This document shows, piece after piece, positions 5,763 through 60,603 of a stretch of DNA of 64,000 nt. Location: assembly GCA_947167135.1 (NCBI GenBank), contig CAMVGV010000001.1, positions 1 to 64,000 on the forward strand, given 5' to 3'. The notes beneath the pieces were generated by a model that was given only the letters and a program-made list of their open reading frames with translations, was not told the origin of the DNA and searched no databases. The stretch is from an uncultured Lachnospiraceae bacterium. Lineage in GTDB: Bacteria > Bacillota > Clostridia > Lachnospirales > Lachnospiraceae. The first letter of the stretch is position 1, and each line of letters opens with the position of its first letter. The translations under genes were made by a program, and so were the position numbers.

Positions 5763-5871
5763 TTCACAAACTCCTTCTTAATCTATGGTAGTATAGACGA
5801 TTGTACTCTATTTTTGCCATGTCTGCAAATATTTACCGTTGTGTGTTATACTGAAAAACAGAAGTCGGTAT

Positions 5872-6262
5872 GTCATTCTGAGGGCGAAGCCCGAAGAATC
5901 TTACATACGTGGGGAAGATTCTTCGCTTCGCTCAGAATGACACAGTGTGGGCTCAGAATGACACAGTGTGGGCTTAGAATGACACGGTGTGGGCTCAGAA
6001 TGACACAGTGTGGATCCGGAATGAGATGAAGTGATGTCATCCTGAGGGCTCTCTCTTGTCATCCTGAGGGCTCTCTCTTGTCATTCTGAGGGCGAAGCCC
6101 GAAGAATCTTACATACGTTTAGAAGATTCTTCGCTTCGCTCAGAATGACACAGTGTGGGCTCAGAATGACACAGTGTGGGCGCAGGATGACACAGTGTGG
6201 GCTCAGAATGACACAGTGTGGGTGTGGGCTTAGAATGACACAGTGTGGGCTTAGAATGACAG
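5872..6262. repeat. Two dispersed palindromic repeats with stuttered arms
   Basis: Two full elements occupy the sugar transferase-gmd gap. Each has a left arm (CATTCTGAGGGCGAAGCCC then GAAGAATCTT), a short spacer (ACATACGT...) and a right arm (GAAGATTCTTCGCTTCGCTC then AGAATGACA). The arms are imperfect reverse complements, so each can fold into a long hairpin. Both are extended outward. Right-arm units CTCAGAATGACACAGTGTGG repeat at about 5932-6015 and 6141-6262. Left-arm units GTCATCCTGAGGGCTCTCTC repeat at 6034-6080. No gene was found here. Confidence 0.85.
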
Positions 6263-6305
6263 GAAGTGGGGATGTCTCCGGTGACTCCAAGGAGGATTAG
6301 AACAT

Positions 6306-7376
6306 ATGAGAAATGTTGCACTTATTACAGGTATTACAGGCCAGGACGGTTCGTATCTTGCGGACCTTCTGCTGGAAAAAGGATATGAGGTTCACGGTAT
6401 CATCCGCCGGCAGTCCAGCATCAATACGAAGCGCATAGACCATCTTTATTACAATAAGGAATTGAAGGACAAGACCTTCTTCCTGCATCATGGCGACATG
6501 ACGGATTCCAGCAATCTGAACCGGATGATAGAGCAGATCCAGCCGACGGAGATATACAATCTCGCGGCCCAGTCCCATGTGGGAGTTTCCTTCGAGGTGC
6601 CGGAATACACCGCGGAAACCACCGGAGTGGGAACCTTGCGTATCCTCGATGCCATAAAGAAAACCGGGGTCAAATGCCGTTTTTACCAGGCTTCCACATC
6701 GGAGCTTTTCGGCGGGATACCGGAGACGGCACCGCAGTCGGAGAAGACACCATTCTATCCGAAGAGCCCCTACGGTGCGGCGAAGCTCTATTCCTACTGG
6801 ATTACCGTGAATTACAGGGAGGCGTACGGCCTTTACGCATGCAACGGTATCCTCTTTAATCACGAGTCACCGAGACGCGGAGAGACCTTTGTGACAAGGA
6901 AGATAACTCAGGCCGTGGCGAGGATCATTAACGGGGATCAGGATACCCTTCCCTTGGGCAATCTGAATGCGAAGCGTGATTGGGGCTTTTCCGGAGACTA
7001 TGTGGAGGGAATGTGGCGGATACTCCAGCAGGATAAGCCGGGAGACTATGTGCTTGCTTCCGGAGAGACCCATTCCGTACGGGAATTTGCCGAGCTTGCC
7101 TTTAAGGAGGTTGGTATCGATCTCGAGTGGAGGGGCACCGGAGTCAATGAGAAGGGATACGACAGGAATACCGGAAGGATCTATGTGGAGGTGAATCCGA
7201 AGTACTTCAGACCCGCTGAGGTGGAGCTTCTTTGGGGAGATCCCTCCAGGGCGGAGAAGGAGCTTGGATGGAAGAGACAGACCAGCTTCAGGGAGCTGGT
7301 TCATATGATGGTTGATTCCGATATGAAGGACATCACCGGGAAAAGCATAGAGGAATACCTGCAAACAACCCTTTGA
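6306..7376 (+). CDS. gmd: GDP-mannose 4,6-dehydratase
   Basis: Gmd converts GDP-mannose to GDP-4-keto-6-deoxymannose, the precursor of GDP-fucose, GDP-rhamnose and related deoxysugars for surface glycans. At 356 residues it has the normal length. The NAD(P)-binding motif [15 protein letters not shown] is at the N-terminus. The catalytic Tyr156-x3-Lys160 pair lies in [12 protein letters not shown], and [18 protein letters not shown] is typical of Gmd. AAGGAGG lies 12 bases before the ATG. No GDP-fucose synthase gene is in the window, so the final sugar is unknown. It fits with the nearby sugar transferase and the glycosyltransferases further on. Confidence 0.93.
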
Positions 7377-9357: not shown

Positions 9358-10329
9358 ATGAACAAAAGCCGGATCACGAAAAACACTATAGACGGACTTC
9401 TGTTTCTGGGGATCCTTCTTGTTATATTCGCTGTTTCATCAAAGCTTGTAAAGCCTGACTTCGGCGAGGTCTATAATATTGTTCAGGTCACACAGAAGCT
9501 GGATTCCTTTGAAGAGGAGATACCGAATACCATTGATGTGATCTTTGCGGGAAACAGCGAGGTATACAGAACCTTTTCCCCGCAGCAGCTCTTTAAGGAA
9601 AACGGTATTTCCTCATACTGCATGAGTGAGAGCGCCCTTAGGCTATGTGATGCCCTGGAGCTCATAAAGGCTTCATATGATTCCCAGACACCGTCGGTGA
9701 TAGTCCTTGAAGCGGATACGATCTTTTCAGATGCCTATACGCATAAGGACGGCTATGCACTTCCGACGAATCTTATCGAGGATATCTTTCCCATATTCCA
9801 CTATCACACAATATATAAATCCTATGTGCCGAATTTTATTTATGATGACAGCGTACCCTTACGTACAGAGCACGCTCTCCGGGGCTTTGTTGAAACAAAT
9901 GAGGCCGTGCCCTATACCGGACCTCAGGATTATATGAGTGTGGGTGATCCTGTCGGGATCAATGAGGAAAGCAAGAAATATCTCGCGGAAATACGGAAGT
10001 TCTGCGAAGAGAAGAATGTACCTTTGGTCCTGACCGCCGCACCAAATGCGAAGAACTGGACCTATTCAAAAAATGAGGCTTTGACTGAATATGCCGAAAA
10101 GTACGGTCTTGACTTTGTTGATCTGAATATGCACCTTGAGGATATGGGCATTGACTGGGCAACCGATACCATGGACGGAGGAAACCATATGTCCTTTGAG
10201 GGCTCGAAAAAGACCACGGCATTTTTCGGAAAGTATCTTGAGGATAATTTTGATCTGCCCGATCACAGAGGTGATCCAGTATACGACGGCTGGGAAAAAG
10301 ATATCAAGGAGTATGGACTGTATCCGTGA
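9358..10329 (+). CDS. Membrane-anchored SGNH/DltD-like protein (MBOAT partner)
   Basis: This 323-residue protein has one N-terminal membrane anchor (TIDGLLFLGILLVIFAVSS) and an extracellular SGNH-hydrolase-like domain. Proteins of this type (DltD, AlgJ/AlgX-like) work with membrane-bound O-acyltransferases to move acyl groups onto extracellular polymers. Block I reads FAGNSEVYR, with Ser67 present but Asn66 where the usual GDS has Asp. The C-terminal block is DGGNHMSFEGSKK, again with Asn276 before His277, whereas the paralog at 24966 has GDS and GDH. Its stop overlaps the MBOAT start by 4 bp. It may be catalytically altered or purely structural. Confidence 0.7.
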   Translation: MNKSRITKNTIDGLLFLGILLVIFAVSSKLVKPDFGEVYNIVQVTQKLDSFEEEIPNTIDVIFAGNSEVYRTFSPQQLFKENGISSYCMSESALRLCDALELIKASYDSQTPSVIVLEADTIFSDAYTHKDGYALPTNLIEDIFPIFHYHTIYKSYVPNFIYDDSVPLRTEHALRGFVETNEAVPYTGPQDYMSVGDPVGINEESKKYLAEIRKFCEEKNVPLVLTAAPNAKNWTYSKNEALTEYAEKYGLDFVDLNMHLEDMGIDWATDTMDGGNHMSFEGSKKTTAFFGKYLEDNFDLPDHRGDPVYDGWEKDIKEYGLYP

Positions 10330-11921
10330 GTATTGGTCTTTTTATTGAATGTATAAGGTTATGGTGGGATCCGGTTTACTCGACCTGGATGTTTTTCGCC
10401 CTCTTCCTGCCGGTGGTGATCCTTCTTTATACCATCGTAAAGGAGGAAAAGCGTTATCTCGTGCTCCTTTTTTCAAGCTGGTTCTTCTTTATTTCTTTGA
10501 GCGGCTGGCTCTTTATCATTCACCTTGCTGAAACCGTTTTCACCTGGAAAACAGCGCTTTCGATACAGGCTGTAAGCGATGATCAAAGCCTTAAAAGGAA
10601 GGAAAAAAGCGCAAAGAAGAAGGGGGTACTGGTAAAGGGAATACTTTGCCTCATTTTTATCCTATTTATCCTGAAATATCTTGATTTTACGGGCTCGGGA
10701 ATAATCCGGATCATACATCTTCTACACATTCCTTTTCCTGAGTGGCGGATGTTAAATATCATCGCACCCGTGGGTATTTCCTACTTTACCCTGGAAGCTG
10801 TATCCTACCTCGCGGATGTGTACTGGGAGAAGACTGCTGCTGAAAAGAGCTATTCAAAGGTTGCTCTTTATATGGGCTTTTTCCCAACATTGATCGAGGG
10901 TCCCATCACCAGGTTTTCCGATATAAAGGATAGCCTGTTTAAGGGGCTGCCGGTGACCTACGACAATCTGACGGCCGGGTATCAGAGGATACTTCTCGGG
11001 CTTTTCAAGAAGCTTATGATCGCAGATCATCTTGCTCCGGCTGTGGATATTGTTTACGGACTTGACGAGATGAAGGGGAGCATCGCATTGTTCGCTGCCA
11101 TTATCTTCACGGTTCAGGAGTATATGGACTTCTCGGGCTCCATTGACATTGTTATCGGCGCTGCGAGGATCTTCGGAGTGGGCTTAAAGGAAAACTTCCG
11201 TCAGCCCTTCTTTGCGAAGAATGCTTCCGACTTCTGGCACAGGTGGCATATTACCCTCGGAACCTTTTTCCGGGACTATGTCTTCTATCCCGTGTCCGTG
11301 AGTAAGGGAGTGATGAAGCTTTCAAAAAAAATGAAGGACCGCTTCGGTATGGAGGTGAGCCGTCTGACCGGCCCGTCCATAGCAATATTCTGCGTATGGA
11401 TATTGAACGGGATCTGGCATGGTCCGAAGTGGACCTACATTTTCTACGGTCTCTATTACTTTGTGCTTATATTCACCGAAAATCTTCTGGAAAAACCTTT
11501 TCTTTCCCTCCTATCAAGGCTTAAAATGGATGAGACTTCGGTTCCGGTAAGGATATTCCGCTCCGTTAAGCTTTTCTTCATAGTGATCTTCGGGGAAATG
11601 TTTTTCAGGGCGGAAGCCATGTCACAGGGAATAAAGATGTTCACCCTTATCTTTACTGACTTTGATCCGGATGCCCTTTTAAGCGGTCTCGGGGAATACG
11701 GTATGGATTATCATGATTACCTGACTGTCATTGTTGCATTTCTTCTGATAATGCTCTTCAATGTGCTGAAGGAAAAGAATGTTCCTATTGACAGAAAATT
11801 CAAAGCTCTTCCAAAGCCTGTCCGCTGGGCGGCCTGGTATGTTATCATAATGAGTATAGTTGTTTTTGGTGCCTATGGCAGCGGATATGATGCAGCGAGG
11901 ATGATATATGCAAAGTTTTAA
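10326..11921 (+). CDS. MBOAT-family O-acyltransferase (DltB/AlgI-like)
   Basis: This multi-pass membrane acyltransferase of 531 residues resembles DltB, which takes an acyl or aminoacyl group from a carrier protein inside the cell and passes it to the outside. Family motifs are present: PVGISYFTLEAVSYLADVY, FFPTLIEGPITRFSD, NASDFWHRWHITLGTFFRDY, and the likely catalytic His of LNGIWHGPKWTYIFYG near residue 365. It starts at a GTG overlapping the SGNH gene and overlaps the ligase gene by 14 bp, so the three are co-translated. The close paralog at 26146 has the same length. The cargo is inferred from the downstream ligase and carrier protein. Confidence 0.87.
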   Translation: MSIGLFIECIRLWWDPVYSTWMFFALFLPVVILLYTIVKEEKRYLVLLFSSWFFFISLSGWLFIIHLAETVFTWKTALSIQAVSDDQSLKRKEKSAKKKGVLVKGILCLIFILFILKYLDFTGSGIIRIIHLLHIPFPEWRMLNIIAPVGISYFTLEAVSYLADVYWEKTAAEKSYSKVALYMGFFPTLIEGPITRFSDIKDSLFKGLPVTYDNLTAGYQRILLGLFKKLMIADHLAPAVDIVYGLDEMKGSIALFAAIIFTVQEYMDFSGSIDIVIGAARIFGVGLKENFRQPFFAKNASDFWHRWHITLGTFFRDYVFYPVSVSKGVMKLSKKMKDRFGMEVSRLTGPSIAIFCVWILNGIWHGPKWTYIFYGLYYFVLIFTENLLEKPFLSLLSRLKMDETSVPVRIFRSVKLFFIVIFGEMFFRAEAMSQGIKMFTLIFTDFDPDALLSGLGEYGMDYHDYLTVIVAFLLIMLFNVLKEKNVPIDRKFKALPKPVRWAAWYVIIMSIVVFGAYGSGYDAARMIYAKF

Positions 11922-13383
11922 GAGTAAAAATATAAAAAATGTACTTGATCTTCTGGAGGATGCCGCAGGGAAGTATACGGTAAAGACAGCCTACTCCGAT
12001 CAGGAAAGGAGCATAAGCTTTGAGGAGGTTCTTCTGAAAGCGAGAGCCGTCGGGACATACCTTATTAAACATAATACCGGCGAGGGGCCTGTGGCTGTTA
12101 TGCTTAAAAGGAGCGTTGATACCATAGTGGTATTTTTGGGTGTGGTCTATTCAGGACATGCCTATGCTCCGGTAGGCCTGGATATTCCGGATGAAAGACG
12201 GGAAAAGATATTAAAGCGGCTTCAGCCTTCATTTATCATTAATGAAGCTATGCTGCCCGGTATCTTCAATGAAAGGATAGACCGCACTCTCCTTGATGAG
12301 AAGAGGAAGGACATTTTGATGACAGATCCCTTATATGTGATCTTTACCTCCGGCTCCGGCGGGGATCCCAAAGGGGTTATCACATCGCATCTCTCCCTCT
12401 TAAATTACATTGAGGGCTACACAGGGGTTATGGGGATCGATTCGGGCGACGTGATGGCGGCCCAGTCTCCTCTTGACTATATCGCGGCCATAAGGGATAT
12501 CTATGTGCCGCTTTTTACCGGAGTGGAAGATGTGCTGGTACCGAAGGAATTTTTCATGCAGCCGGATGTGCTTTTCGATCTCCTGAATGAAAGAAGGGTA
12601 AGCTGCGTGGGCTGGAGTACCTCTGCCATATCGATCCTTACGAAGCTCAAAGCATTTAAGGACAAGAAACCGGAATTCTTACGGAAGATCTGCTTTTCCG
12701 GGAGCGTGATGAACGGGGCGGTTCTTCGGCAGTGGCAGGAGGAGCTGCCGGATGCTGTATTTGTAAATCAGTACGGGCCTACGGAAACCACAGCGAGCTG
12801 CACCTATTATAAGATCGACCATCCGGTGGAGGAGGATGAGATCATCCCGATCGGCATTCCCTATCCGGATTACAGGGTCTTCCTCATTTCAGAGGATGAT
12901 GCCCCGGTTAAGCAGGGAGAAGAGGGAGAGATCGCAGTTGCTGGAGCCGGAGTGACCTTGGGTTATATTAATGATCCTGAAAGGACGGCAGCGGCTTTTA
13001 CCTGTAATCCTCTGGAAAAGGCCTTTTATGAGAGGATCTACAGAACCGGGGACATTGGTGTTTTCCGCGAGGACGGACTTCTCATGTTCCACGGCAGGAA
13101 GGACAGGCAGATAAAGCATATGGGCCACAGGGTGGAGCTTGACGAGATAGAGAGCGCTGCCGCGGCCTCGGGAATAGAGAGGAGCGCGGCTCTTTATGAC
13201 GCAGACAGGGAAAACCTCTGGCTGTTTTATGAAGGTGAGATCGATACGAGAACCCTGGCACTTTCTTTGAGGGAAAAGCTCCCGGGCTTTATGGTTCCGA
13301 GGAAGATAAAGAACATGGATGCCCTGCCGCTCCTTCCCAACGGAAAAACAGATTTTAATACATTGAAAAGTATGATACACTAA
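11908..13383 (+). CDS. AMP-forming amino acid/acyl ligase (DltA-like adenylation enzyme)
   Basis: This 491-residue stand-alone adenylation domain activates a carboxylic or amino acid with ATP and loads it on a carrier protein. Motifs in order are: phosphate-binding loop FTSGSGGDPKG (around residue 145-156, differing from TSGSTGxPKG), NQYGPTETT near 287-295, RTGDIGVFREDG, GRKDRQIKHMGHRVELDEIE, and the C-terminal catalytic Lys480 in LPNGKTDF. Its length and its place next to MBOAT and SGNH genes recall DltA. However, the decarboxylase in this cluster suggests that the substrate may not be D-alanine. Specificity residues cannot be decoded by eye. Confidence 0.82.
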   Translation: MQSFKSKNIKNVLDLLEDAAGKYTVKTAYSDQERSISFEEVLLKARAVGTYLIKHNTGEGPVAVMLKRSVDTIVVFLGVVYSGHAYAPVGLDIPDERREKILKRLQPSFIINEAMLPGIFNERIDRTLLDEKRKDILMTDPLYVIFTSGSGGDPKGVITSHLSLLNYIEGYTGVMGIDSGDVMAAQSPLDYIAAIRDIYVPLFTGVEDVLVPKEFFMQPDVLFDLLNERRVSCVGWSTSAISILTKLKAFKDKKPEFLRKICFSGSVMNGAVLRQWQEELPDAVFVNQYGPTETTASCTYYKIDHPVEEDEIIPIGIPYPDYRVFLISEDDAPVKQGEEGEIAVAGAGVTLGYINDPERTAAAFTCNPLEKAFYERIYRTGDIGVFREDGLLMFHGRKDRQIKHMGHRVELDEIESAAAASGIERSAALYDADRENLWLFYEGEIDTRTLALSLREKLPGFMVPRKIKNMDALPLLPNGKTDFNTLKSMIH

Positions 13384-13413
13384 GAGCGATTTGGGCGGAG
13401 CGGCCTGTCATTC

Positions 13414-13596
13414 ATACACCTGTTTTTGGTTGTGCGTCCACTGGACGTTTTACCATTCTGAGGGCGGAGCCCCCACTGTCATTCTGAGGGTGCAGCCCCC
13501 ACTGTCATTCTGAGGGCGCAGCCCGAAGAATCTTAAGATCCTTCGCTGCGCTCAGGATGACAATAAGGGATGAGAAGATCCTTCGCTTAGGGTAAC
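13414..13596. repeat. Composite repeat with left-arm stutter
   Basis: The segment 13414-13472 matches part of the 177-bp composite element found at 23789 and 25894 (ACACCTGTTTTTGGTTGTGC then GTCCACTGGACG). It runs into three left-arm units (CATTCTGAGGGCGGAGCCC and variants, about 26 bp apart), one full palindromic element with CTTCGCTGCGCTCAGGATGA, and a final partial arm. It separates the ligase gene from the carrier protein gene inside what looks like one functional cluster. Confidence 0.8.
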
Positions 13597-13630
13597 GAGT
13601 AGATATATTAGTATAAAGGAGGTGGAAGTA

Positions 13631-13864
13631 TTGAGGGAAAAGATTCTGGAAATCCTTACAGAGGTAAGACCGGATATTGATTTTGAAAATGAAACCGAGC
13701 TTGTTAGCGGTAATATTCTGGAATCCTTTGACATCGTCCAGATAGTGGCAGAACTGGATGATGAATTTGATATCGAAATATCTCCAAAGGATCTGACCGC
13801 GGAAAACTTCAATTCCCTGGATGCCCTGGAGGAACTGATAGAAAGACTCTCAGGGGAAGGATAA
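13631..13864 (+). CDS. Acyl/aminoacyl carrier protein (DltC-like)
   Basis: This is a 77-residue phosphopantetheine carrier protein. The frame extends back to GTG 13622, but the AAAGGAGG at 13615-13622 overlaps that codon and fits the TTG at 13631. The attachment Ser32 lies in GNILESFDIVQIVAEL, the canonical helix-2 site. The protein is strongly acidic, as carriers are. It should accept the group activated by the ligase at 11908, and the decarboxylase starts 3 bp after its stop. A weak promoter (TATATT at 13604-13609) may give it separate transcription, since repeats fill the gap upstream. Confidence 0.85.
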   Translation: MREKILEILTEVRPDIDFENETELVSGNILESFDIVQIVAELDDEFDIEISPKDLTAENFNSLDALEELIERLSGEG

Positions 13865-13867
13865 GTC

Positions 13868-15058
13868 TTGAATACTCCGTATTATCTTTTTGATGCATCA
13901 AAATTCAGGGAGAGGATTGCTTTTATAAAGAGTGTTTTTCCGGATAAGGATCTGACCTTTTCCATAAAGGCGAACCCTTTTCTTCTTTCTGCGCTTCCGG
14001 ACAGGGATACCATCAGATATGTGGAGGTCTGCAGTCCTGGAGAGCTTTCTCTGTGCAGGGCTTCAGGGGTTCCCGGTGACAGGATACTTTATTCCGGTGT
14101 TATGAAGGAAGAAAGCGATGTACATGAAGCCTTTGAATACGGGGCTGCGATCCTTACGGCGGAGAGCAGGCGGCACTATGCTCTGATAGCAGCGGAGGGA
14201 AAAAGCTCCGGGAAAAGGGCAAAGGTGATCCTCAGGCTGTCCTCCGGCAATCAGTTCGGGATGTCAGAGGAGGATATTCTGGACATTCTTTCGGAGAGAG
14301 AGCGGCATGATGTCGACATCATAGGCATTCATTATTATTCCGGAACTGCCAAGACGAGGCTGAAGCAGATTGAAAAGGATATGAAAAATCTGACTTCCCT
14401 GCTGGAAGAAGCTGAGAGCAGGGCTTCCTTTGTCCCGGATCTTGTGGAGTACGGTCCGGGGCTTTCCTCAGAGTACTATGAAGATCCTTATGAAGAAAAG
14501 GACAGAGAATTGATAAAGCTCGTATCGGAGCCCATCAGGGAATTCGGAAGGAGGTACAGAACCGGTCTCGAGATGGGTCGTTTTATGGCAGCACCATCAG
14601 GTGCTTATTTCACCTCCGTTATGGACATAAAGCTTAACGGAGGCGCGAATTATGTGATCTGCGACGGGGGAGTGCATCAGCTGAAGTACCATGGACAGAA
14701 TATGGCAATGAAGGTTCCTCCTGTCTCACTTATCCGTGACGGCGAAGAGATATGGAGTACCGAAGGCCGCGGGGATCCTTTGGATCCCGGATCCAATGGC
14801 GCTCCGGGCGGAAAGCATTACTGTATCTGCGGAAGTCTCTGCACCACAGCAGATGTGCTGATCCGGGATATCGAGCTTCCGGAGCTTATTATAGGAGATG
14901 TTCTGTGCTTCGGAAGGTGCGGCGCCTACTCAGTGACCGAGGGGCCTCTTGCCTTTCTTTCAAGGAACATGCCCGAGATCTGGCTCCGTGACGGAGAGAC
15001 GAGACTCCTAAGAGAAAGCAGGGAGAGCTGGAAAATGAATACACCGATGTCATTCTGA
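13868..15058 (+). CDS. Fold-type III PLP decarboxylase (LysA/BtrK-like)
   Basis: This 396-residue member of the diaminopimelate/ornithine decarboxylase superfamily is distinct from the true LysA at 16982. Lys34 (FSIKAN) should bind PLP. The second domain has CGSLCTTADVLIRD (Cys321, Cys325) and the GAY motif (352-354), all decarboxylase hallmarks. It follows the carrier protein gene by 3 bp, a pairing known from BtrI/BtrK of butirosin synthesis, where glutamyl-carrier protein is decarboxylated. A related ligase/carrier/decarboxylase set occurs in exosortase-associated loci. The last residues (TPMSF) and stop codon come from a dispersed repeat, so the original C-terminus may have been altered. 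It starts at TTG. Substrate is unknown. Confidence 0.75.
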   Translation: MNTPYYLFDASKFRERIAFIKSVFPDKDLTFSIKANPFLLSALPDRDTIRYVEVCSPGELSLCRASGVPGDRILYSGVMKEESDVHEAFEYGAAILTAESRRHYALIAAEGKSSGKRAKVILRLSSGNQFGMSEEDILDILSERERHDVDIIGIHYYSGTAKTRLKQIEKDMKNLTSLLEEAESRASFVPDLVEYGPGLSSEYYEDPYEEKDRELIKLVSEPIREFGRRYRTGLEMGRFMAAPSGAYFTSVMDIKLNGGANYVICDGGVHQLKYHGQNMAMKVPPVSLIRDGEEIWSTEGRGDPLDPGSNGAPGGKHYCICGSLCTTADVLIRDIELPELIIGDVLCFGRCGAYSVTEGPLAFLSRNMPEIWLRDGETRLLRESRESWKMNTPMSF

Positions 15059-15119
15059 GGGCGAAGCCCGAAGAATCTTCCCAACGGAAGAAAGATCCTT
15101 CGCTTCGCTCAGGATGACA
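15048..15119. repeat. Dispersed palindromic repeat overlapping a stop codon
   Basis: This is a full element: left arm TGTCATTCTGAGGGCGAAGC, spacer CCCAACGGAAG, right arm AAGATCCTTCGCTTCGCTCA then GGATGACA. The TGA within CATTCTGA at 15056-15058 is the stop codon of the decarboxylase gene. Confidence 0.85.
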
Positions 15120-16981: not shown

Positions 16982-18277
16982 ATGATCAGGGAAATAAAAA
17001 ACGGAAAGCTTTATTTCGACGGCTGTGACACCACGGCTCTTGCTAAAGAGTACGGTACACCCCTTTATGTTTTTTCGGAAAGCGACATTGAAAGCCGTGT
17101 CGCGGAATTAAAGAAGGACTTTATCGAAAAGTACGGGAACTGCCGCGTTGCCTATGCTTCAAAGGCCTTCTGCAGCAGAGGAATGTATAAGCTTCTTGAG
17201 AAAAGCGGTTTTTCCATAGATGTGGTCAGCGGCGGAGAGCTTGCAGTCGCAATGTCGGTTGATTTTCCGGCTGACAGGATCGAATTTAACGGGAATAATA
17301 AGCTGCCTTCGGAAATAGATATGGCGGTTAAGTACGGTGTCAGGCGCTTTATCCTTGACGGAACAAAGGAGCTTCCTCTTATAGAGGAGGCCTGCAAAAG
17401 GTATGACAAAAAGGTAAAGGTTGTTGTCCGCATAACCCCGGGGGTTGCGGCATCGACCCATGACTACATCGTCACAGGAAAGCTGGACTCAAAGTTCGGT
17501 ATCCCTATGGAGGATGATGTACTTTATCCCCTTATAAAAAGCGTTATTGATTCGCCTTATACCGAGTTTCAGGGGCTGCATATGCATATAGGCTCCCAGC
17601 TCTTTACCACAAAGGAGTTTATGGAATCCCTTGAGGTGATGCTCACCACAGCGACCGAGGTAAAGAGAAGGCTCGGTGAGGATATTAAGGAATTCAATCT
17701 GGGCGGAGGCTTCGGCGTGACCTACACCAATGAGGAGAGAAAGCCTTACTCCTTCTTCCTTGATCCGATGATGGAGAGGATCATAGAGTGGTCAAAGGAT
17801 ATGGGAATGGAGAGACCGAAGGTTTCCATTGAGCCGGGACGGAGTATCGTGGCGGAAGCCGGCATCACACTCTATACCGTGGGGCAGATAAAGGAGATAA
17901 AGGACGTAAGGAAGTATGTGTCCATAGACGGGGGAATGGGGGATAATATCCGTGTTCCCCTCTATGATGCGGTTTACACCGGGATCATAGCGAATAAGGC
18001 TGAGGAGCCTTGTACGGACAAGGTTACGATCTGTGGAAAGTGCTGTGAATCCGGTGATATAATAATCCGTGATCTTATGATCCCGGAGAGCACGGTGGCA
18101 GGAGATATAGTGGCGGTTTATTCTACAGGAGCCTACGGCTATACCATGGCTTCAAACTACAATAACTGTCCCATCCCCGCAGCGGTGCTCGTGAAGGACG
18201 GCCGCCACGCCCTTCTGATAAAGAGACAGACCTACGAGCAGATCATGGAGAACCAGCTCGTACCGGAATGGCTGTGA
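16982..18277 (+). CDS. lysA: Diaminopimelate decarboxylase
   Basis: LysA converts meso-diaminopimelate to L-lysine, the last step of lysine synthesis. At 431 residues it has the normal length. Lys61 in YASKAFCSRGM binds PLP. Glycine-rich EFNLGGGFGVTY, SIEPGRSIVAEAG, CGKCCESGDIIIRD and GAYGYTMASNYN are all LysA hallmarks. AAAGGAG lies about 10 bases before the ATG. No other lysine gene is adjacent and no lysine riboswitch was recognised upstream, where a dispersed repeat sits. It serves as the in-window reference for the shorter, divergent decarboxylase at 13868. Confidence 0.94.
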   Translation: MIREIKNGKLYFDGCDTTALAKEYGTPLYVFSESDIESRVAELKKDFIEKYGNCRVAYASKAFCSRGMYKLLEKSGFSIDVVSGGELAVAMSVDFPADRIEFNGNNKLPSEIDMAVKYGVRRFILDGTKELPLIEEACKRYDKKVKVVVRITPGVAASTHDYIVTGKLDSKFGIPMEDDVLYPLIKSVIDSPYTEFQGLHMHIGSQLFTTKEFMESLEVMLTTATEVKRRLGEDIKEFNLGGGFGVTYTNEERKPYSFFLDPMMERIIEWSKDMGMERPKVSIEPGRSIVAEAGITLYTVGQIKEIKDVRKYVSIDGGMGDNIRVPLYDAVYTGIIANKAEEPCTDKVTICGKCCESGDIIIRDLMIPESTVAGDIVAVYSTGAYGYTMASNYNNCPIPAAVLVKDGRHALLIKRQTYEQIMENQLVPEWL

Positions 18278-24087: not shown

Positions 24088-24966
24088 ATGATAGAGATCC
24101 ACGCGGATGATTTCGGTATAAGTCCGGGAGCTTCGGAGCAGATCATTGACTGCATCAATAACGGCTGCGTGAACGGCACCAGCATTATGCCAAACAGCCC
24201 GTACCTTCCGGAGTGCATGGAGGTTCTGCGGAGAGACTGCCGGAAGGAGGTTTTTCTTTCGGTCCATTTTGACCTGATTACCGGACATGCTCTGACGGGG
24301 CGCAGTATTTTGACCGACGGGGAAGGCTATTTCAATACTTCCTATTCCGGCTATATCCTGAACCTTTTTCTTCCGTTTTACAGGAGAAAATATCTTGCCG
24401 CTGTAAAGAAGGAGCTTTCGGCACAGCTTGACCGCTGTCTTCCCTACCTTGACAGGGAGAGGATACGTATCGACAGCCACAGGCATGTGCATATGATACC
24501 GGCGGTTTTTTCCCTTATTATGGAGCTCATAGAGGAAAAGAACTTAAGGCTTTCATATATCCGCATTACAAGTGACGCCCCCTATGCCTTCAGAGGGATC
24601 GGGCATTTCACTGGCTTCCGTCCTCTGAATATCATTAAGAGCCTCCTGCTTTTTGCCTTCGGAGTAATTAACCTTTTCCGTTTCGGAAACAGACTTAAAG
24701 GAAAGACTGCGGACTTTGCGGGGATACTGTTTTCCGGCTCCCTGACACCGGGAAATCTCCATAACATTTTGAATAACAGGCTGCACCAAAGGGCAGCAAA
24801 GAGGGGACTGGAGATCATGATCCATCCTTACCGGATCACGGAGAAAGAGGTTCTGGAGCGTATCCATGACGCGGAGGACAGGGCTTATGTGGCGTCTAAG
24901 ATGAGGAGCCTGGAGATCGAAGCCGTCAAAAATCCCGGAAATATTGAATTATTGAAAAAGCTGTAA
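24088..24966 (+). CDS. ChbG/HpnK (YdjC) family carbohydrate deacetylase
   Basis: This metal-dependent deacetylase family removes acetyl groups from N-acetylated sugars, such as chitooligosaccharides (ChbG) or lipid-linked aminosugars (HpnK-type). The N-terminus IEIHADDFGISPG carries Asp7/Asp8. His60 (LSVHFDLITGH) and His131 (DSHRHVHMIP) complete the expected metal site. It has 292 residues. Its stop overlaps the start of the following SGNH gene (TAATG), so both are translated together. Flanking by inverted copies of the 177-bp element is unusual. The context of glycosyltransferases and MBOAT suggests a role on a surface glycan or glycolipid. Confidence 0.8.
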   Translation: MIEIHADDFGISPGASEQIIDCINNGCVNGTSIMPNSPYLPECMEVLRRDCRKEVFLSVHFDLITGHALTGRSILTDGEGYFNTSYSGYILNLFLPFYRRKYLAAVKKELSAQLDRCLPYLDRERIRIDSHRHVHMIPAVFSLIMELIEEKNLRLSYIRITSDAPYAFRGIGHFTGFRPLNIIKSLLLFAFGVINLFRFGNRLKGKTADFAGILFSGSLTPGNLHNILNNRLHQRAAKRGLEIMIHPYRITEKEVLERIHDAEDRAYVASKMRSLEIEAVKNPGNIELLKKL

Positions 24967-25910
24967 TGATAGAAAGAATGAAGCATAAAAAAGCCATATG
25001 CCTGATGATCGGGTTTTTCTTCCTGCTTTTTTTGACGTCCTATCTCGTGAGCCCCGAAGAGGGTGAGGTATACGACATTATTTCGACCCGCAGGAAGATC
25101 GCGGATATTCACCTTGAGAAGGAGAATACGATAGATGTTATTTTTGCCGGGGACTCCCTGGTTTTCAGGGATATCTCCCCGCTCCGCATATGGGAGAAGA
25201 GCGGTATCACCTCCTATGACTTAAGCGACGGCGCCATGAGGCTCTGTGACCAGTGTGTCCTGATAAAGAATTTCTGCCGCAGACAGAGCCCGAAGCTTCT
25301 GGTGCTTGAAGCGGACATTATGACAAAGGACGCTTCCCCGTTTAAGGACGATTTTGCAATTCCGACGAATATGATCGAAAGGCTGTTTCCCATATTTCAT
25401 TACCACACCTTTTACAAGGGATTCAATATCTTCGATGAAAATGAGGGGGCATCCGGGACAAAGGGATACCAGCCGGAAGATACGGTGGAGCCCTACGAGG
25501 GAAGCCTTGATTATATGACGGAGGATGCGGAGCCTGTGGAGATCGGAGAGCTGAATCTGATCTATCTTGACAGGATAGTGGATTTCTGCGGGGAAAATGA
25601 TATTGAGCTTTTGATCCTGGCACTTCCGAGTCCCGGGAATTACAACAAAGAGGTTCATAAGGCGGTGCAGGAGTGGGCTGACGACAAGGGAACGGAGTTT
25701 GTCGATATGAATCTTTTTTATGAGGAACTTGGTATCGACTGGGCGAAGGATACCAAGGACGGCGGGGATCATCTGAACAGAAGCGGCTCCGAAAAGGTAT
25801 CGGACTATATAGCCGGGTACCTTAGGGAGAATTACGATCTTCCGGACCACAGGGATGACCCGGAGTATTCCGACTGGAAGATTCTTCGGGCTGCGCCCTC
25901 AGAATGGTAA
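24966..25910 (+). CDS. Membrane-anchored SGNH/DltD-like protein, second copy
   Basis: This 314-residue paralog of the protein at 9358 shares the N-terminal anchor (AICLMIGFFFLLFLTSYLVS), block I FAGDSLVFRDISP (Asp63, Ser64, the canonical GDS) and the C-terminal DGGDHLNRSGSEKVSDYI. It probably partners the MBOAT at 26146 in extracellular acyl transfer. The ATG overlaps the deacetylase stop. A second ATG at 24978 is also possible. Its final residues (ILRAAPSEW) and stop lie in the dispersed repeat arm and inverted repeat at 25881-26070, so the natural C-terminus has been replaced by repeat sequence. Confidence 0.75.
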   Translation: MIERMKHKKAICLMIGFFFLLFLTSYLVSPEEGEVYDIISTRRKIADIHLEKENTIDVIFAGDSLVFRDISPLRIWEKSGITSYDLSDGAMRLCDQCVLIKNFCRRQSPKLLVLEADIMTKDASPFKDDFAIPTNMIERLFPIFHYHTFYKGFNIFDENEGASGTKGYQPEDTVEPYEGSLDYMTEDAEPVEIGELNLIYLDRIVDFCGENDIELLILALPSPGNYNKEVHKAVQEWADDKGTEFVDMNLFYEELGIDWAKDTKDGGDHLNRSGSEKVSDYIAGYLRENYDLPDHRDDPEYSDWKILRAAPSEW

Positions 25911-26070
25911 AACGTCCAGTGGACGCACAACCAAAAACAGGTGTATTTTTGGTTGTTTTGTTTTACGCCCCCGTTTATGCAAAATGTGCCAATGGCACAT
26001 TTTGAATGGCGTATAGCCGTGCTGAGCACGGCTGCCATCGGTGCGCTATGCGCGAGTGGGGGCCGTACAG
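25894..26070 (-). repeat. 177-bp composite element, copy 2 (inverted)
   Basis: This is the reverse complement of 23789-23965 with no difference found by eye. It begins inside the 3' end of the SGNH gene. The stop codon TAA at 25908-25910 lies within it. Confidence 0.9.
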
Positions 26071-26100
26071 GGAGGCTGCACATTCGGAATGCCCCAACTG

Positions 26101-26126
26101 TAATCCTGAGCGAAGCGAAGGATCTT
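26101..26126. repeat. Half-copy of the dispersed repeat
   Basis: TAATCCTGAGCGAAGCGAAG followed by GATCTT is a single arm, 20 bases before the MBOAT start codon. Confidence 0.7.
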
Positions 26127-26145
26127 GTTTGCAGGTTAAACATTA

Positions 26146-27741
26146 ATGCTGGATATACAATACATAACTGAATGCTTATCGGAATGGTGGAGGCAGCTTT
26201 CATACACCACCTGGATGTATTTCGCGCTGTTCCTCCCCGTTACCATGCTTATCTATCAGATCTCTCCCCGGAAGAACCGGAGGATAGTGCTTCTTGCGGC
26301 CGGATGGTTCTTCTTTTTCAGCCTGAGCGGTATCCTCCTTCTTGCCAATATCGTTTCATCGGTTTTTGTCTGGATCACCGGTATACAGCTGGAGAAGGCG
26401 GGAAATGACAAGAGCATAGACAGGAAGGGGCGGCAGAAGAAAAAGAAGCGGATACTTTTTCTATCCGTGCTGCTGTTGATACTGGTCATCATTCTTTTCA
26501 AATATCTCAACTTTATCGGCCTTAATACCGTCAGGCTCACGCAGCTTTTCCAAATCCCCTTCAACTGGAAGATCCTGAAGCTCGCCGTGCCTGTGGGTAT
26601 CTCATATTACACCCTGGAATCCATATCCTATCTGACGGAGATCTACAGGGGAAATATGAGCGCGGAGAAGAGTGTTCTGAATGTGTGTCTTTTTATGTCC
26701 TTCTTTCCGAAGCTGGTGGAGGGACCGGTTACAAAATATACCGAGGGAACTCCTCTTTTTTCCGGAGAGGGCATAAAGGAAGAAAATGCGGCATACGGTT
26801 ATCAGAGGATACTCTGGGGCCTTTTTAAGAAGCTCTGTATTGCGGATCAGCTTTCGCCCGCTGTTTCACAGATCTTTGAAGGTGAGTATATGGACGGGGG
26901 CGTGGCTCTTTTCGGAGCCTTTCTCTTTACTGTCCAGGAATATATGGATTTTTCCGGCTCTATTGACGTGGCCATCGGAAGTGCAAGGATATTCGGGGTA
27001 AGGCTTCCGGAAAACTTCAGACAGCCGTTCTTCGCAAAAAACGCCTCGGATTTCTGGCGGAGATGGCATATCACCCTGGGACGCTTCTTCAGGGAGTATA
27101 TCTTTTATCCTGTGGTTCTCGCAAAGCCCGTTACCCGGTTTACGAAGAAGGTAAAGGATGCTCTGGGAAAAAATGCCGTAAAGCTGCTGACACCGGCCAT
27201 AGCACTGTTTCCCGTATGGCTTGCAAACGGAGTCTGGCACGGTGCGAAGTGGTCGTACATTTTCTACGGTATGTACTATTTTGTCATAGTGTATCTTGAG
27301 ACCGTTCTGGAAGAGCCTGTGCAGAAGCTTCTGGAGCGGATTAAATTAAGTGAAGGCTCTGTTCCGGTGAGGGTTTTCAGGTATCTGAAGCTCATGCTGA
27401 TCGTGGTGGTCGGAGAGATGTTCTTCAGAGCCGAGACCCTGAGTGTGGGTATGCATATGCTTAAGCTCATTTTCACGGATCTGCGCTTTGATATGGTGGT
27501 ATATCATATCCAGGATATAGGCATAGACAGATACGGGTATATGGTGATCATTTTCGGTATTCTTGTGGTCTGTGCCGTGGAGATAATGAAGGAAGCGGGG
27601 ATCCCGATCCGTGCGAAGCTTGAAGCCCTGCCCCTTCCCTGCCGTTTTGTTTTCTGGTATGCCTGCATATTTTTCGTAATACTATTTGGGGCCTACGGTA
27701 CCGGATACGATCCGGTGGATCTTCTTTATGCACAGTTCTAG
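26146..27741 (+). CDS. MBOAT-family O-acyltransferase, second copy
   Basis: This 531-residue paralog of the MBOAT at 10326 has the same length and motif order: PVGISYYTLESISYLTEIY, FFPKLVEGPVTKYTEG, NASDFWRRWHITLGRFFREY and the catalytic-site motif LANGVWHGAKWSYIFYG near residue 365. It should pass an acyl group across the membrane to a polymer, with the SGNH protein at 24966. This locus has no ligase or carrier protein, so it may share the carrier from 13631 or use acyl-CoA. The ribosome site is weak. The 177-bp inverted repeat separates it from its likely partners. Confidence 0.87.
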   Translation: MLDIQYITECLSEWWRQLSYTTWMYFALFLPVTMLIYQISPRKNRRIVLLAAGWFFFFSLSGILLLANIVSSVFVWITGIQLEKAGNDKSIDRKGRQKKKKRILFLSVLLLILVIILFKYLNFIGLNTVRLTQLFQIPFNWKILKLAVPVGISYYTLESISYLTEIYRGNMSAEKSVLNVCLFMSFFPKLVEGPVTKYTEGTPLFSGEGIKEENAAYGYQRILWGLFKKLCIADQLSPAVSQIFEGEYMDGGVALFGAFLFTVQEYMDFSGSIDVAIGSARIFGVRLPENFRQPFFAKNASDFWRRWHITLGRFFREYIFYPVVLAKPVTRFTKKVKDALGKNAVKLLTPAIALFPVWLANGVWHGAKWSYIFYGMYYFVIVYLETVLEEPVQKLLERIKLSEGSVPVRVFRYLKLMLIVVVGEMFFRAETLSVGMHMLKLIFTDLRFDMVVYHIQDIGIDRYGYMVIIFGILVVCAVEIMKEAGIPIRAKLEALPLPCRFVFWYACIFFVILFGAYGTGYDPVDLLYAQF

Positions 27742-58348: not shown

Positions 58349-59176
58349 ATGAAAAAAGCCATAGTGATCCTTCCCATAAGCGGGGAAGAAAGACAGGAAT
58401 ATGAATCCTTAAAGGGATATGATTTTTCATTTGTTGAAGCGGACAAGCTGACAGCAGAGGAGTTTCAGTCAGCCTCTCTTGTCATCGGGAAGCTGAGTCC
58501 GGCTAAGCTTAGGATCCTTTCTTCGGAGCAGGCAGCTACGAGCCCGGAAATACAGGGTGATCCGGGAGTTTCGAAGATACTGAATAAGCCGCTTATTCTG
58601 GCTTCGGCATCGCCAAGAAGAAGGGAGCTCCTAAAAAAGGCAGACATACCCTTCACCGTAATGCCTGCCGATATCGAGGAGGTTATGGTGGCCGGGGAGC
58701 CTGCGGACGTGGCAGAGGAAATATCCTCATACAAGGCGGAATATGTGGCGGATAAGCTCATCAGGGAAGAAAAGCAGGATTCCTTTGTGATCCTTTCTGC
58801 AGATACTATAGTAACCGTGGACGGGAAGGTTCTGGGAAAGCCCAGGGACGAAGAGGAAGCCTTCAATGTACTGAAAGAGCTTCAGGGAAGAGAGCATGAG
58901 GTCTATACCGGAGTCACAATTGCCGTTAAGCATCCGGGGAAGAACGTGCATTATAAGCAGTTCCATGAGAAGACCAGAGTGAAGATCTATCCTGTAAGCG
59001 ACGAACAGATAAGGGATTATATCTCTACGGGCGAGCCCCTGGATAAGGCAGGTTCATATGCCATACAGGGATCCTTTGCAAAATATATCAAAAGCATAAA
59101 GGGAGACTACAGCAATGTTGTGGGGCTCCCGGTAGGCAGAGTATTTAAGGAGCTTAAGCAGTTCCTAAGGAAATAA
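58349..59176 (+). CDS. Maf-type nucleotide pyrophosphatase with N-terminal extension
   Basis: Maf proteins hydrolyse non-canonical nucleoside triphosphates (dTTP/UTP or modified bases) to monophosphates. The Maf domain begins at about residue 80: LILASASPRRRELLKKADI, SYKAEYVADKL, ILSADTIVTVDGKVLGKPRD, and GSYAIQGSFAKYIKSIKGDY. The first 80 residues (KKAIVILPISGEERQEYE...LVIGKLSPAKLRILSSEQAA) resemble the beginning of a D-2-hydroxyacid dehydrogenase and are fused in frame. No Met lies at the usual Maf start, so the extension appears to be translated. It overlaps the MBOAT gene by one codon position (TAATG). Confidence 0.85.
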   Translation: MKKAIVILPISGEERQEYESLKGYDFSFVEADKLTAEEFQSASLVIGKLSPAKLRILSSEQAATSPEIQGDPGVSKILNKPLILASASPRRRELLKKADIPFTVMPADIEEVMVAGEPADVAEEISSYKAEYVADKLIREEKQDSFVILSADTIVTVDGKVLGKPRDEEEAFNVLKELQGREHEVYTGVTIAVKHPGKNVHYKQFHEKTRVKIYPVSDEQIRDYISTGEPLDKAGSYAIQGSFAKYIKSIKGDYSNVVGLPVGRVFKELKQFLRK

Positions 59177-60603
59177 TGATATTTAATTCAGTCTCATTTG
59201 CGGTCTTTTTTCCGGTCGCAGTACTGATATATTTCATATTGCCTGCAAAGGCAGGCAAGGCTAGAAGGATATGGCTGCTCTTATGCAGCTATTATTTCTA
59301 TATGAGTCAGGGAGCAGGTTATGTACTGCTCCTCCTTCTTGCTACCGTGATAACATATATATCGGCGTTCTGGGTCTATAAGAACCGCTTTCTCCTTACA
59401 CTTTCCTTTGTATTGGAGCTGTCACTCCTTTTCTTTTTCAAGTATTTCAATTTTTTCTGCGAGACCTTCGGGATAGAGACCGGCTTTAACATACTGCTTC
59501 CGGTGGGGATATCCTTTTATATCTTTAAATCCCTCTCATACATTGCGGATGTTTATAAGGGTGAATGCAGTCCGGAAAGGGATTTTGTAAGGTATGCGCT
59601 GTTCGTATCCTTCTTCCCCGAGCTTCTCGCGGGACCCATAAGCCGTGCCCCCTCAGTGCTGCCCCAGTTTAATGAAGAGCACAGCTTTGAGTATGAGCGG
59701 GTGCGTCACGGTCTTTTACGGATGCTGTGGGGATATTTTGTGAAGCTCGTTATCGCCTCACGGCTTTCCATAATGGTGGATCTCATTTTTTCAAATGTGG
59801 ATTATGCGGACGGCCTGCAGCTTCTGGTTGCGGCGCTATCCTTTTCAGTACAGATCTACTGCGACTTTATGAGCTATTCCGAGATAGCTCTGGGAGCCGG
59901 GGAGATATTCGGGATACAGCTCCACGAGAACTTCCGTCAGCCTTTTCTCGCCACCAGTCTGTCGGACGCCTGGAGAAGGTGGCATATGTCCCTTATGCAC
60001 TGGTTTAAGGACTATCTTTATATTCCCCTTGGAGGAAGCAGAAAGGGGAAGCTTCGGAAATATCTGAATATCCTTATAGTATTCACTCTTTCCGGTCTCT
60101 GGCACGGTGCAGCCTTTACCTATATAGTATGGGGATTTCTGTCAGGTCTCCTGCAGGTTCTGGGAGAGGTGACATATGGCTTCAGAAGCCGTTTAATAGC
60201 GGCCTTTCCGGTGGACAACCCCTTCACGGCAAAGGTGCATTCATATTATATGAGGATCATGACATATTTCCTTTTCAGCTTCACAGCGGTCTTCTTCAGA
60301 TCGGAAAGCGTGTCCGATGCGGTGAAGATCATAGAGAAGATCTTTACCGATATCAATTTATCTGTGATAAGAAGCTTTGATATAACCGCTCTCGGTCTCG
60401 GAACCTTTAATCTCTGTATTGCCTTTGCCATGGTCATATTCCTTTTCGTTACCGACATAATAAAGGAGAAAAAGGGGGATATCTTCTCCCTGGTACTGGG
60501 TTCCGCCTGGTATGTGCGATGGACGGTTTATTTCTTCCTCACACTGGCAATAATATTCAGCGCGAATATCGGAGCCGCGAAGTTTATTTATTTTGAATTC
60601 TGA
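59176..60603 (+). CDS. MBOAT-family O-acyltransferase, third copy
   Basis: This 475-residue MBOAT is of the AlgI/PatA/DltB type, more typical of polysaccharide O-acetylation than the two 531-residue copies. Motifs are LPVGISFYIFKSLSYIADVY, SFFPELLAGPISRAPSVLPQ, LSDAWRRWHMSLMHWFKDYL and LSGLWHGAAFTYIVWG, with the catalytic-site His near residue 309. Its start overlaps the maf stop (TAATGATA) and it ends directly before the SGNH gene. Acetyl-CoA is the likely donor, by analogy with AlgI-type proteins. Confidence 0.87.
   Translation: MIFNSVSFAVFFPVAVLIYFILPAKAGKARRIWLLLCSYYFYMSQGAGYVLLLLLATVITYISAFWVYKNRFLLTLSFVLELSLLFFFKYFNFFCETFGIETGFNILLPVGISFYIFKSLSYIADVYKGECSPERDFVRYALFVSFFPELLAGPISRAPSVLPQFNEEHSFEYERVRHGLLRMLWGYFVKLVIASRLSIMVDLIFSNVDYADGLQLLVAALSFSVQIYCDFMSYSEIALGAGEIFGIQLHENFRQPFLATSLSDAWRRWHMSLMHWFKDYLYIPLGGSRKGKLRKYLNILIVFTLSGLWHGAAFTYIVWGFLSGLLQVLGEVTYGFRSRLIAAFPVDNPFTAKVHSYYMRIMTYFLFSFTAVFFRSESVSDAVKIIEKIFTDINLSVIRSFDITALGLGTFNLCIAFAMVIFLFVTDIIKEKKGDIFSLVLGSAWYVRWTVYFFLTLAIIFSANIGAAKFIYFEF

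Follow-up and report, generated by a model that had tools for sequence, protein, structure and literature searches.

Why should a gene cluster that resembles the Dlt system of D-alanylation carry an amino acid decarboxylase of its own? The question is raised by five genes at positions 9358-15058 of the window, by which we mean the whole stretch of 64,000 nucleotides analysed here, from an uncultured Lachnospiraceae bacterium (contig CAMVGV010000001.1). They encode an SGNH-fold protein, a membrane-bound O-acyltransferase (MBOAT), a stand-alone AMP-forming ligase, a small carrier protein and a fold-III pyridoxal phosphate (PLP) decarboxylase. The initial annotation had described them as a Dlt-like cassette with its own decarboxylase, and this description extends far beyond the genome of origin, with a five-gene, same-strand cluster at 87 of 121 loci. 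The architecture of the cassette is well supported by its gene content, conservation, linkage, decarboxylase clade, motifs and ligase pocket differences. From there we infer its chemistry: the cassette probably, though well short of certainly, makes its acyl group on the carrier, with glutamate or aspartate loaded by the side chain, decarboxylated and exported.

All five reading frames are intact and lie on one strand (Table 1). As first described, the first three genes overlap and 3 bp (13865-13867) separate the carrier and decarboxylase genes; the overlaps measure 4 bp between SGNH and MBOAT (10326-10329) and 14 bp between MBOAT and ligase (11908-11921); a 238 bp gap between ligase and carrier genes (247 bp to the TTG codon), with repeat copies inside it, had gone unmentioned. 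The carrier more likely starts at TTG 13631 (77 amino acids) than at GTG 13622 (80 amino acids), because AAAGGAGG stands at 13615-13622, upstream of the TTG. In outline the cassette is of the Dlt kind, having ligase, carrier, MBOAT and SGNH protein in one operon and a carrier-bound donor like DltA/DltB/DltC/DltD/DltX, yet by model cut-offs it fails membership of DltA and DltB. In particular, the ligase scores 193.4 bits against AMP-binding and 248.4 bits against the DltA model TIGR01734 (cut-off 559.85), while the MBOAT scores 46.9 bits against its family and 135.8 bits against the DltB model TIGR04091 (cut-off 375); all cassette proteins are under the cut-offs of the NCBIfam DltA, DltB, DltC, LysA and TIGR03099 models. 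The carrier matches PP-binding at 22.6 bits, and the SGNH protein scores 28.2 bits against Lipase_GDSL_2, below the cut-off of 32.9. Further differences from Dlt are the added PLP decarboxylase, a ligase pocket unlike that of DltA comparators, and a shuttle motif at the MBOAT C-terminus, where Dlt has its motif in the DltX microprotein.

The 121 loci were retrieved through the decarboxylase and comprise the window, 40 loci from 39 other genomes of a family sample (200 genomes; one match, G061, was left out and G090 contributed two loci), and the best 80 of at least 584 stretches from a scan of species genomes; L036/L125 and L038/L166 are one locus each. The 40 family loci and the window supplied the profiles of all five genes, and a full cluster was defined as five genes on the same strand with gaps under 3 kb. 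In the family sample, the decarboxylase query matched 88 of 200 genomes at E <= 1e-3, the weaker matches probably including many LysA genes, and 41, including the genome of the window, at E <= 1e-37, the threshold for calling a genome decarboxylase-positive. The species scan gave at least 595 stretches with a relative of the decarboxylase, at least 584 of them confirmed by tblastn (E <= 1e-3); the best 80 of these come from Lachnospiraceae, Ruminococcus albus, Agathobacter, Pseudobutyrivibrio, Butyrivibrio, Eubacterium ramulus, a Christensenella record and others, and many of the records are from the rumen by their titles. An even sample of the phylum held matches at E <= 1e-60 in 6 of 398 genomes, four of them above 480 bits, and the system is therefore patchy beyond its core groups.

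The 34 loci other than the 87 full clusters have ligase, carrier and decarboxylase only (17), lack only an SGNH match (6), lack only the ligase (4), or hold fewer genes or other sets (7), and some of them stop at contig edges. Gene order varies: ligase-carrier-decarboxylase-MBOAT-SGNH occurs 29 times, ligase-decarboxylase-carrier-MBOAT-SGNH 20 times, the window's order SGNH-MBOAT-ligase-carrier-decarboxylase 9 times plus 5 times in the company of a further decarboxylase-like gene, which in the window is LysA, MBOAT-SGNH-ligase-decarboxylase-carrier 7 times, and SGNH-ligase-carrier-decarboxylase-MBOAT 6 times, besides others. The linkage therefore survives rearrangement, and the number of full clusters together with the conserved catalytic residues excludes chance. 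Moreover, six genomes with a ligase/decarboxylase pair (five of the six also with a carrier) and no adjacent MBOAT were searched with the cassette MBOAT alignment; five hold one or two full-length cassette-type MBOATs elsewhere (best matches of 573-655 bits), and the sixth has only a weaker match of 264 bits. Across the family sample, 34 of the 41 decarboxylase-positive genomes hold an MBOAT match at E <= 1e-170, compared to 8 of the 159 counted as negative (Fisher p 6e-24), an effect inflated because the model was built from linked MBOATs; five values of the threshold were tried after the data were seen. The co-occurrence whose absence would have refuted the initial annotation is strong.

Linkage also bears on whether the MBOAT and SGNH protein are merely one outlet of a trio that supplies aminoacyl-carrier to several users, such as cytoplasmic sugar N- or O-acyltransferases. 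At L129 the trio adjoins a hexapeptide acyltransferase gene (6269-7192, Pfam Hexapep) with no MBOAT, L133 appears similarly arranged by its similar sequence start, and the 17 loci with the trio only, some at contig ends, would fit such a role. However, both MBOAT and SGNH genes are present in 87 of the 121 loci and five of the six searched genomes without a linked MBOAT have one elsewhere, so that we regard a general supply role as improbable. In both L129 and L133, a second ligase/carrier pair follows.

The decarboxylase shows the motifs on which its identification had rested, Lys34, CGSLC (321-325) and GAY (352-354), and the key residues are invariant (Lys34 in 117 of 117 sequences, Cys325 and Tyr354 in 118 of 118 each). 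Like BtrK and TIGR03099, it has LCT and QFG and no RPxLY-like stretch; the true LysA of the window, encoded two genes downstream of the cassette (16982-18277; 422 bits to the LysA model TIGR01048), has in contrast CES, KFG and the Arg, and the cassette enzyme is without the LysA-type Glu and Arg. It scores 131.4 bits against TIGR01048 (cut-off 297.9), its best NCBIfam match is TIGR03099 (138.8 bits, cut-off 478.45), and its best PDB match by sequence is BtrK (109.5 bits), compared to 87.8 bits for the best LysA. In the tree, the cassette decarboxylases do not group with LysA: they form their own clade (support 100/100), the window LysA belongs to a separate one (100/99), and the TIGR03099 reference L185 also falls outside. 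A fold comparison gave no discrimination between LysA and BtrK; identity as LysA or a racemase was rejected by the model scores, the separate clade and the motifs.

These results leave ordinary D-alanylation, with the fold-III enzyme as an amino acid racemase or LysA paralogue unlinked to the ligase, very hard to maintain. Its attractions are that Ala_racemase_N matches the N-terminal domain of the enzyme and that a true LysA gene lies close by; against these, the C-terminal decarboxylase domain is also present (Pfam Orn_Arg_deC_N and Orn_DAP_Arg_deC) with Cys325 and Tyr354 invariant, the clade stands apart from the window LysA, the ligase pocket is unlike that of DltA, and the linkage recurs in many contexts.

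The remaining proteins are also conserved at their functional residues, including carrier Ser35 (116 of 116), ligase Lys480 (114 of 114), MBOAT His308 (96 of 96), His365 (95 of 95) and Tyr528 (94 of 94), and SGNH Ser67 (91 of 92) and His277 (90 of 90). The features of an MBOAT-SGNH pair, namely the MBOAT His, the C-terminal Tyr motif and the SGNH Ser and His, are therefore all present. The MBOAT C-terminus reads xxYxxF in 89 of 98 proteins, with F as first residue in 58 and M, as in the window, in 12; of the exceptions, six end in Y..Y and three without the motif are at contig ends. Passages of a 2025 paper (PMC12148441) place such an FXYXXF shuttle on DltX in Dlt and at the own C-terminus of other MBOATs, and state that MBOATs with the built-in motif are without a similar carrier protein. 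The cassette combines both, a carrier protein and a built-in MBOAT shuttle motif. For the SGNH structure model, DltD ranks 50th by Foldseek and is not among the 50 VIA-align entries listed.

What the ligase loads was approached through ten pocket positions, taken from the alignment and placed by eye on GrsA numbering (235, 239, 301, 330/331). The ligases fall into four classes. Class I (68 ligases, including that of the window) reads D I A R S/A C S Q A S with a variable sixth place, and all 68 have a decarboxylase; class II (53) reads D D V K S/T x S L/V/I C N, 48 with a decarboxylase and 5 without; class III (30) begins Y/C D A K/R, 29 without a decarboxylase and one with (L056); and class IV (4) begins Y S M, none with a decarboxylase. 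For L248-L276, viewed with flanks of about 1.5 kb, absence of a decarboxylase means none within the flanks. Three further ligases were unreadable and two (L268, L092) fit none of the classes. Asp190 occurs in 116 decarboxylase-linked and 5 unlinked ligases, and another residue in 1 linked and 35 unlinked ones. Between classes I and II, 16 positions of the ligase show a difference fixed at more than 85%, and the other four proteins show none. The position of the alpha-amino anchor Asp235 is Ile in 68 of 68 class I ligases, while class II keeps Asp235; Arg or Lys at 239 is found in 111 of 111 ligases scored and Ser at 301 in 110 of 111. Two candidate marks were dropped, namely loss of Asp235 for the whole ligase family, which is true of class I only, and Lys239 for decarboxylase-linked ligases, which class III carries too.

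The pocket is distinct from that of DltA. Ten DltA-model matches from the taxonomic class sample have Ser190 and Asp192 in every case and a base at 196 in none; two that exceed the DltA cut-off read S D L M S L C T V A (L277) and S D V I A V A G V L (L278), and the window ligase differs from the former at 9 of 10 positions. A pocket identical to that of DltA, which would have refuted the initial annotation, is not what is seen. In B. cereus DltA, Asp197 and Cys269 contact D-alanine, according to PMC4176424. The window ligase has Ile and Ser at these positions (235 and 301, equated by motif rather than by alignment), and some DltA-model matches are also without Cys at the 301 position. Passages of PMC11253843 describe recognition of a beta-amino acid by VinN through Asp230, Ser299 and a shortened loop; of these features, the Ser (301) is common to the cassette ligases and the Asp (235) occurs in class II only. 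The loop segment is 25 residues long in cassette ligases, compared to 26 in DltA matches, and is also 25 in L206 and L208. The basic residue at 239 and Ser301 suggest that the substrate, once loaded, carries one more acidic group.

Taken as a model of the pathway, the ligase would first adenylate an acidic L-amino acid, with Glu or Asp the likeliest, at its side-chain carboxyl and load it onto Ser35 of the holo-carrier. The thioester is placed on the side chain because PLP decarboxylation needs a free carboxyl beside the amine, and ACV synthetase indicates that such enzymes can adenylate a side-chain carboxyl (PMC7147772). The PLP decarboxylase would then take the free alpha-carboxyl off the carrier-bound residue, by analogy with BtrK and VinO, leaving a 4-aminobutyryl (from Glu) or beta-alanyl (from Asp) thioester. 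Next, as in DltX and PatA, the MBOAT, whose C-terminal motif is observed, would carry the group across the membrane onto the Tyr of that motif; SGNH Ser67 would accept it and esterify an outer polymer, so that a cationic ester would take the place of D-alanine. The on-carrier step has described precedents in BtrK, which converts glutamyl-BtrI to 4-aminobutyryl-BtrI (passages of PMC7857480), and in VinN/VinL/VinO, where loading has to precede decarboxylation (passages of PMC11284099).

The order of these steps could be reversed, with the decarboxylase converting a free amino acid (Asp into beta-alanine, say, or Glu into 4-aminobutyrate), the ligase loading the finished omega-amino acid, and the rest remaining Dlt-like. 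The same passages of PMC11284099 provide a precedent, IdnL3, a PLP decarboxylase of a macrolactam pathway that acts on free beta-glutamate before loading; class I without the alpha-amino Asp235 is compatible with beta-alanine or 4-aminobutyrate, and cassettes without a decarboxylase exist. We nevertheless hold this order to be unlikely: by sequence, the closest relative with a solved structure is BtrK, which is carrier-dependent, the decarboxylase gene often overlaps or directly adjoins that of the ligase or carrier, and the base at 239 and Ser301 point towards an extra acidic group on what is loaded. Alternatively, Asp or Glu might be loaded through the alpha-carboxyl, with the enzyme taking off the side-chain carboxyl while the residue is on the carrier, so that aspartyl, for instance, would become alanyl. 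Class II, keeping Asp235 as alpha-amino anchor together with Lys239, could be read in this way, but class I is without Asp235 and we know of no fold-III enzyme that decarboxylates the side chain of carrier-bound Asp or Glu, making this route scarcely plausible.

Several observations count against loading by the side chain followed by on-carrier decarboxylation and export, or at least against its simple version. The tree does not resolve the sister of the decarboxylase clade and neither supports nor excludes BtrK as its nearest family. Further, some loci have ligase and decarboxylase but no neighbouring MBOAT, and five class II ligases belong to cassettes without a decarboxylase gene. Finally, McyG activates L-Phe although it is without Asp235 (passages of PMC11253843).

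The decarboxylase-free ligases may point to a wider system. An Asp/Glu racemase gene lies directly upstream of 18 of 30 class III ligases (L237, L238, L241, L242, L246, L254, L256-L260, L262, L264, L267, L269, L271, L273 and L275), compared to 0 of 121 in classes I and II and 0 of 4 in class IV, by BLAST with two queries; the spacing from racemase to ligase is -42 to +88 bp between stop-to-stop frames, and the L237 gene matches PF01177 at 135 bits. Class III therefore probably loads D-Asp or D-Glu, and a D-aspartyl or D-glutamyl surface modification by these loci is possible. If so, the basic residue 239 of classes I-III likely meets a carboxylate, which in classes I and II may be the very group that the decarboxylase removes. 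Moreover, two class II loci without a decarboxylase have formyltransferase-like genes next to the carrier (L228:7556-8440 and L236:2-850; PF00551, 78 and 81 bits), with further BLAST matches in L231 (38%) and, weakly, L036/L125 (28% over 148 amino acids), and other tailoring enzymes may therefore replace the decarboxylase. We tentatively propose, at somewhat less than even confidence, a modular family of Dlt-like cassettes in gut and rumen Clostridia whose aminoacyl chemistry is exchanged through the ligase class and one tailoring enzyme: on-carrier decarboxylation giving 4-aminobutyryl or beta-alanyl esters (classes I and II), racemisation giving D-aspartyl or D-glutamyl groups (class III), and perhaps formylation (some of class II).

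Two loci stand somewhat apart. In L056 (7316-10612), bacterial Ig-like and transglutaminase-core domains are encoded in the same open frame as the decarboxylase. Cytoplasmic and surface domains are thereby oddly combined, and an assembly effect may be the cause. In the genome of the window, contig C14 carries another ligase/carrier pair (L092:8139-9911, signature YDMKTCSLGS) in a setting that by eye resembles nonulosonic acid synthesis; a gene like those of Asp/Glu racemases lies upstream of the pair.

Of the known systems, BtrJ/BtrI/BtrK of butirosin synthesis shares the fold-III decarboxylase, nearest to BtrK by sequence and in BtrK acting on a small carrier; BtrJ is an ATP-grasp enzyme, however, whereas the cassette ligase is an ANL adenylating enzyme, and the destination is a membrane acyltransferase instead of an aminoglycoside. 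By functional parts as described in passages of PMC11284099, VinN/VinL/VinO of vicenistatin synthesis is alike in its adenylating ligase, stand-alone carrier and PLP decarboxylase acting after loading; it differs in making a polyketide starter unit and in that VinN keeps Asp230. The ligase/carrier/PLP decarboxylase trio has here an experimentally tested precedent, which the initial annotation had not named. The exosortase-associated TIGR03098/TIGR03099 pair has a related ligase and decarboxylase; the cassette decarboxylase is far under the TIGR03099 cut-off, and reference L185 lies outside its clade. PatA/PatB and other MBOAT-SGNH pairs share the C-terminal xxYxxF MBOAT and partner SGNH protein, but are described in PMC12148441 as being without a carrier, evidently using acyl-CoA, where the cassette has ligase and carrier. 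As had been supposed, no description of the five-gene combination was found among the titles and abstracts listed by searches of open-access papers, with subscription papers and preprints outside their coverage, and passages of PMC12419801 do not describe it either.

The surroundings of the cassette were also compared. No polymer synthesis gene stood out among the clustered neighbours, and no further gene occurs in more than one-fifth of the 121 loci. The largest neighbour cluster (26 genes in 24 loci) was rejected as a sixth part, being a chained mix in which 6 of 26 genes have a GGDEF-type motif and many others are response-regulator-like by eye; the next clusters cover 11 loci or fewer. Nine GGDEF/GGEEF genes lie near 9 of 121 cassettes (L036, L037, L042, L112, L113, L120, L125, L142 and L148), too few for a part. 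In L043, L053, L059, L066, L068, L069, L073 and L154, genes that are response-regulator-like by eye share the strand of the decarboxylase and lie no more than about 4.2 kb from it, several of them immediately behind the SGNH gene. The cassette may be under two-component control.

Within the window, a second SGNH/MBOAT pair (24966-27741) follows a YdjC-like gene with no ligase alongside, and its SGNH protein has no Pfam match. A third MBOAT (59176-61599; 475 amino acids, 29% identical to the first) precedes a protein that by eye may be SGNH-like. Palindrome-like interspersed repeats occur at 13451-13566, 15047-15119 and 5870-6270; the copy at 15047-15119 begins within the 3′ end of the decarboxylase gene and continues past its end, and with the copies in the ligase-carrier gap the carrier/decarboxylase pair is therefore bracketed by repeats.

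Table 1. Features of the cassette and related elements in the window.
Feature	Position	Strand	Remarks
SGNH-fold protein	9358..10329	+	323 amino acids; N-terminal helix, probably membrane anchor; proposed last acyl transferase, DltD/PatB-like role
MBOAT acyltransferase, DltB-like	10326..11921	+	531 amino acids; C-terminus ..MIYAKF, Tyr528 in its own acyl-shuttle motif
Stand-alone AMP-forming ligase	11908..13383	+	491 amino acids; class I pocket D190 I192 A193 R196 S239 C262 S264 Q288 A296 S297
Carrier protein	13631..13864	+	77 amino acids from TTG (80 if GTG 13622); phosphopantetheine site Ser35, numbered from 13622
Fold-III PLP decarboxylase	13868..15058	+	396 amino acids; TTG start; BtrK/TIGR03099-like motifs
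Second SGNH protein	24966..25910	+	42% identical to first; possible second outlet of the same carrier
Second cassette-type MBOAT	26146..27741	+	50% identical to first; C-terminus DLLYAQF
Interspersed repeat copies, ligase-carrier gap	13451..13566		not thought functional

D-alanylation sets the surface charge, peptide resistance and immune recognition of Gram-positive bacteria. Because DltA over the curated cut-off occurs in 0 of 56 genomes of the order sample, the question arises of what gut bacteria use as its substitute; in the class sample, DltA exceeds the cut-off in 2 of 291 genomes and DltA-like matches at E <= 1e-100 occur in 13 of 291, and the genome of the window has no DltA or DltB over the curated cut-offs. 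The cassette is a concrete candidate answer for such DltA-poor gut bacteria: judged from its genes, a conserved five-gene machine in a rumen bacterium and many gut Clostridia looks built to load, decarboxylate and export. If this is true, the cassette would break the rule, published in PMC12148441, that no carrier protein accompanies MBOATs with a shuttle motif of their own, and it would bring on-carrier decarboxylation outside antibiotic synthesis. Surface modification with 4-aminobutyryl or beta-alanyl groups would then be a new kind of envelope modification in common gut bacteria.

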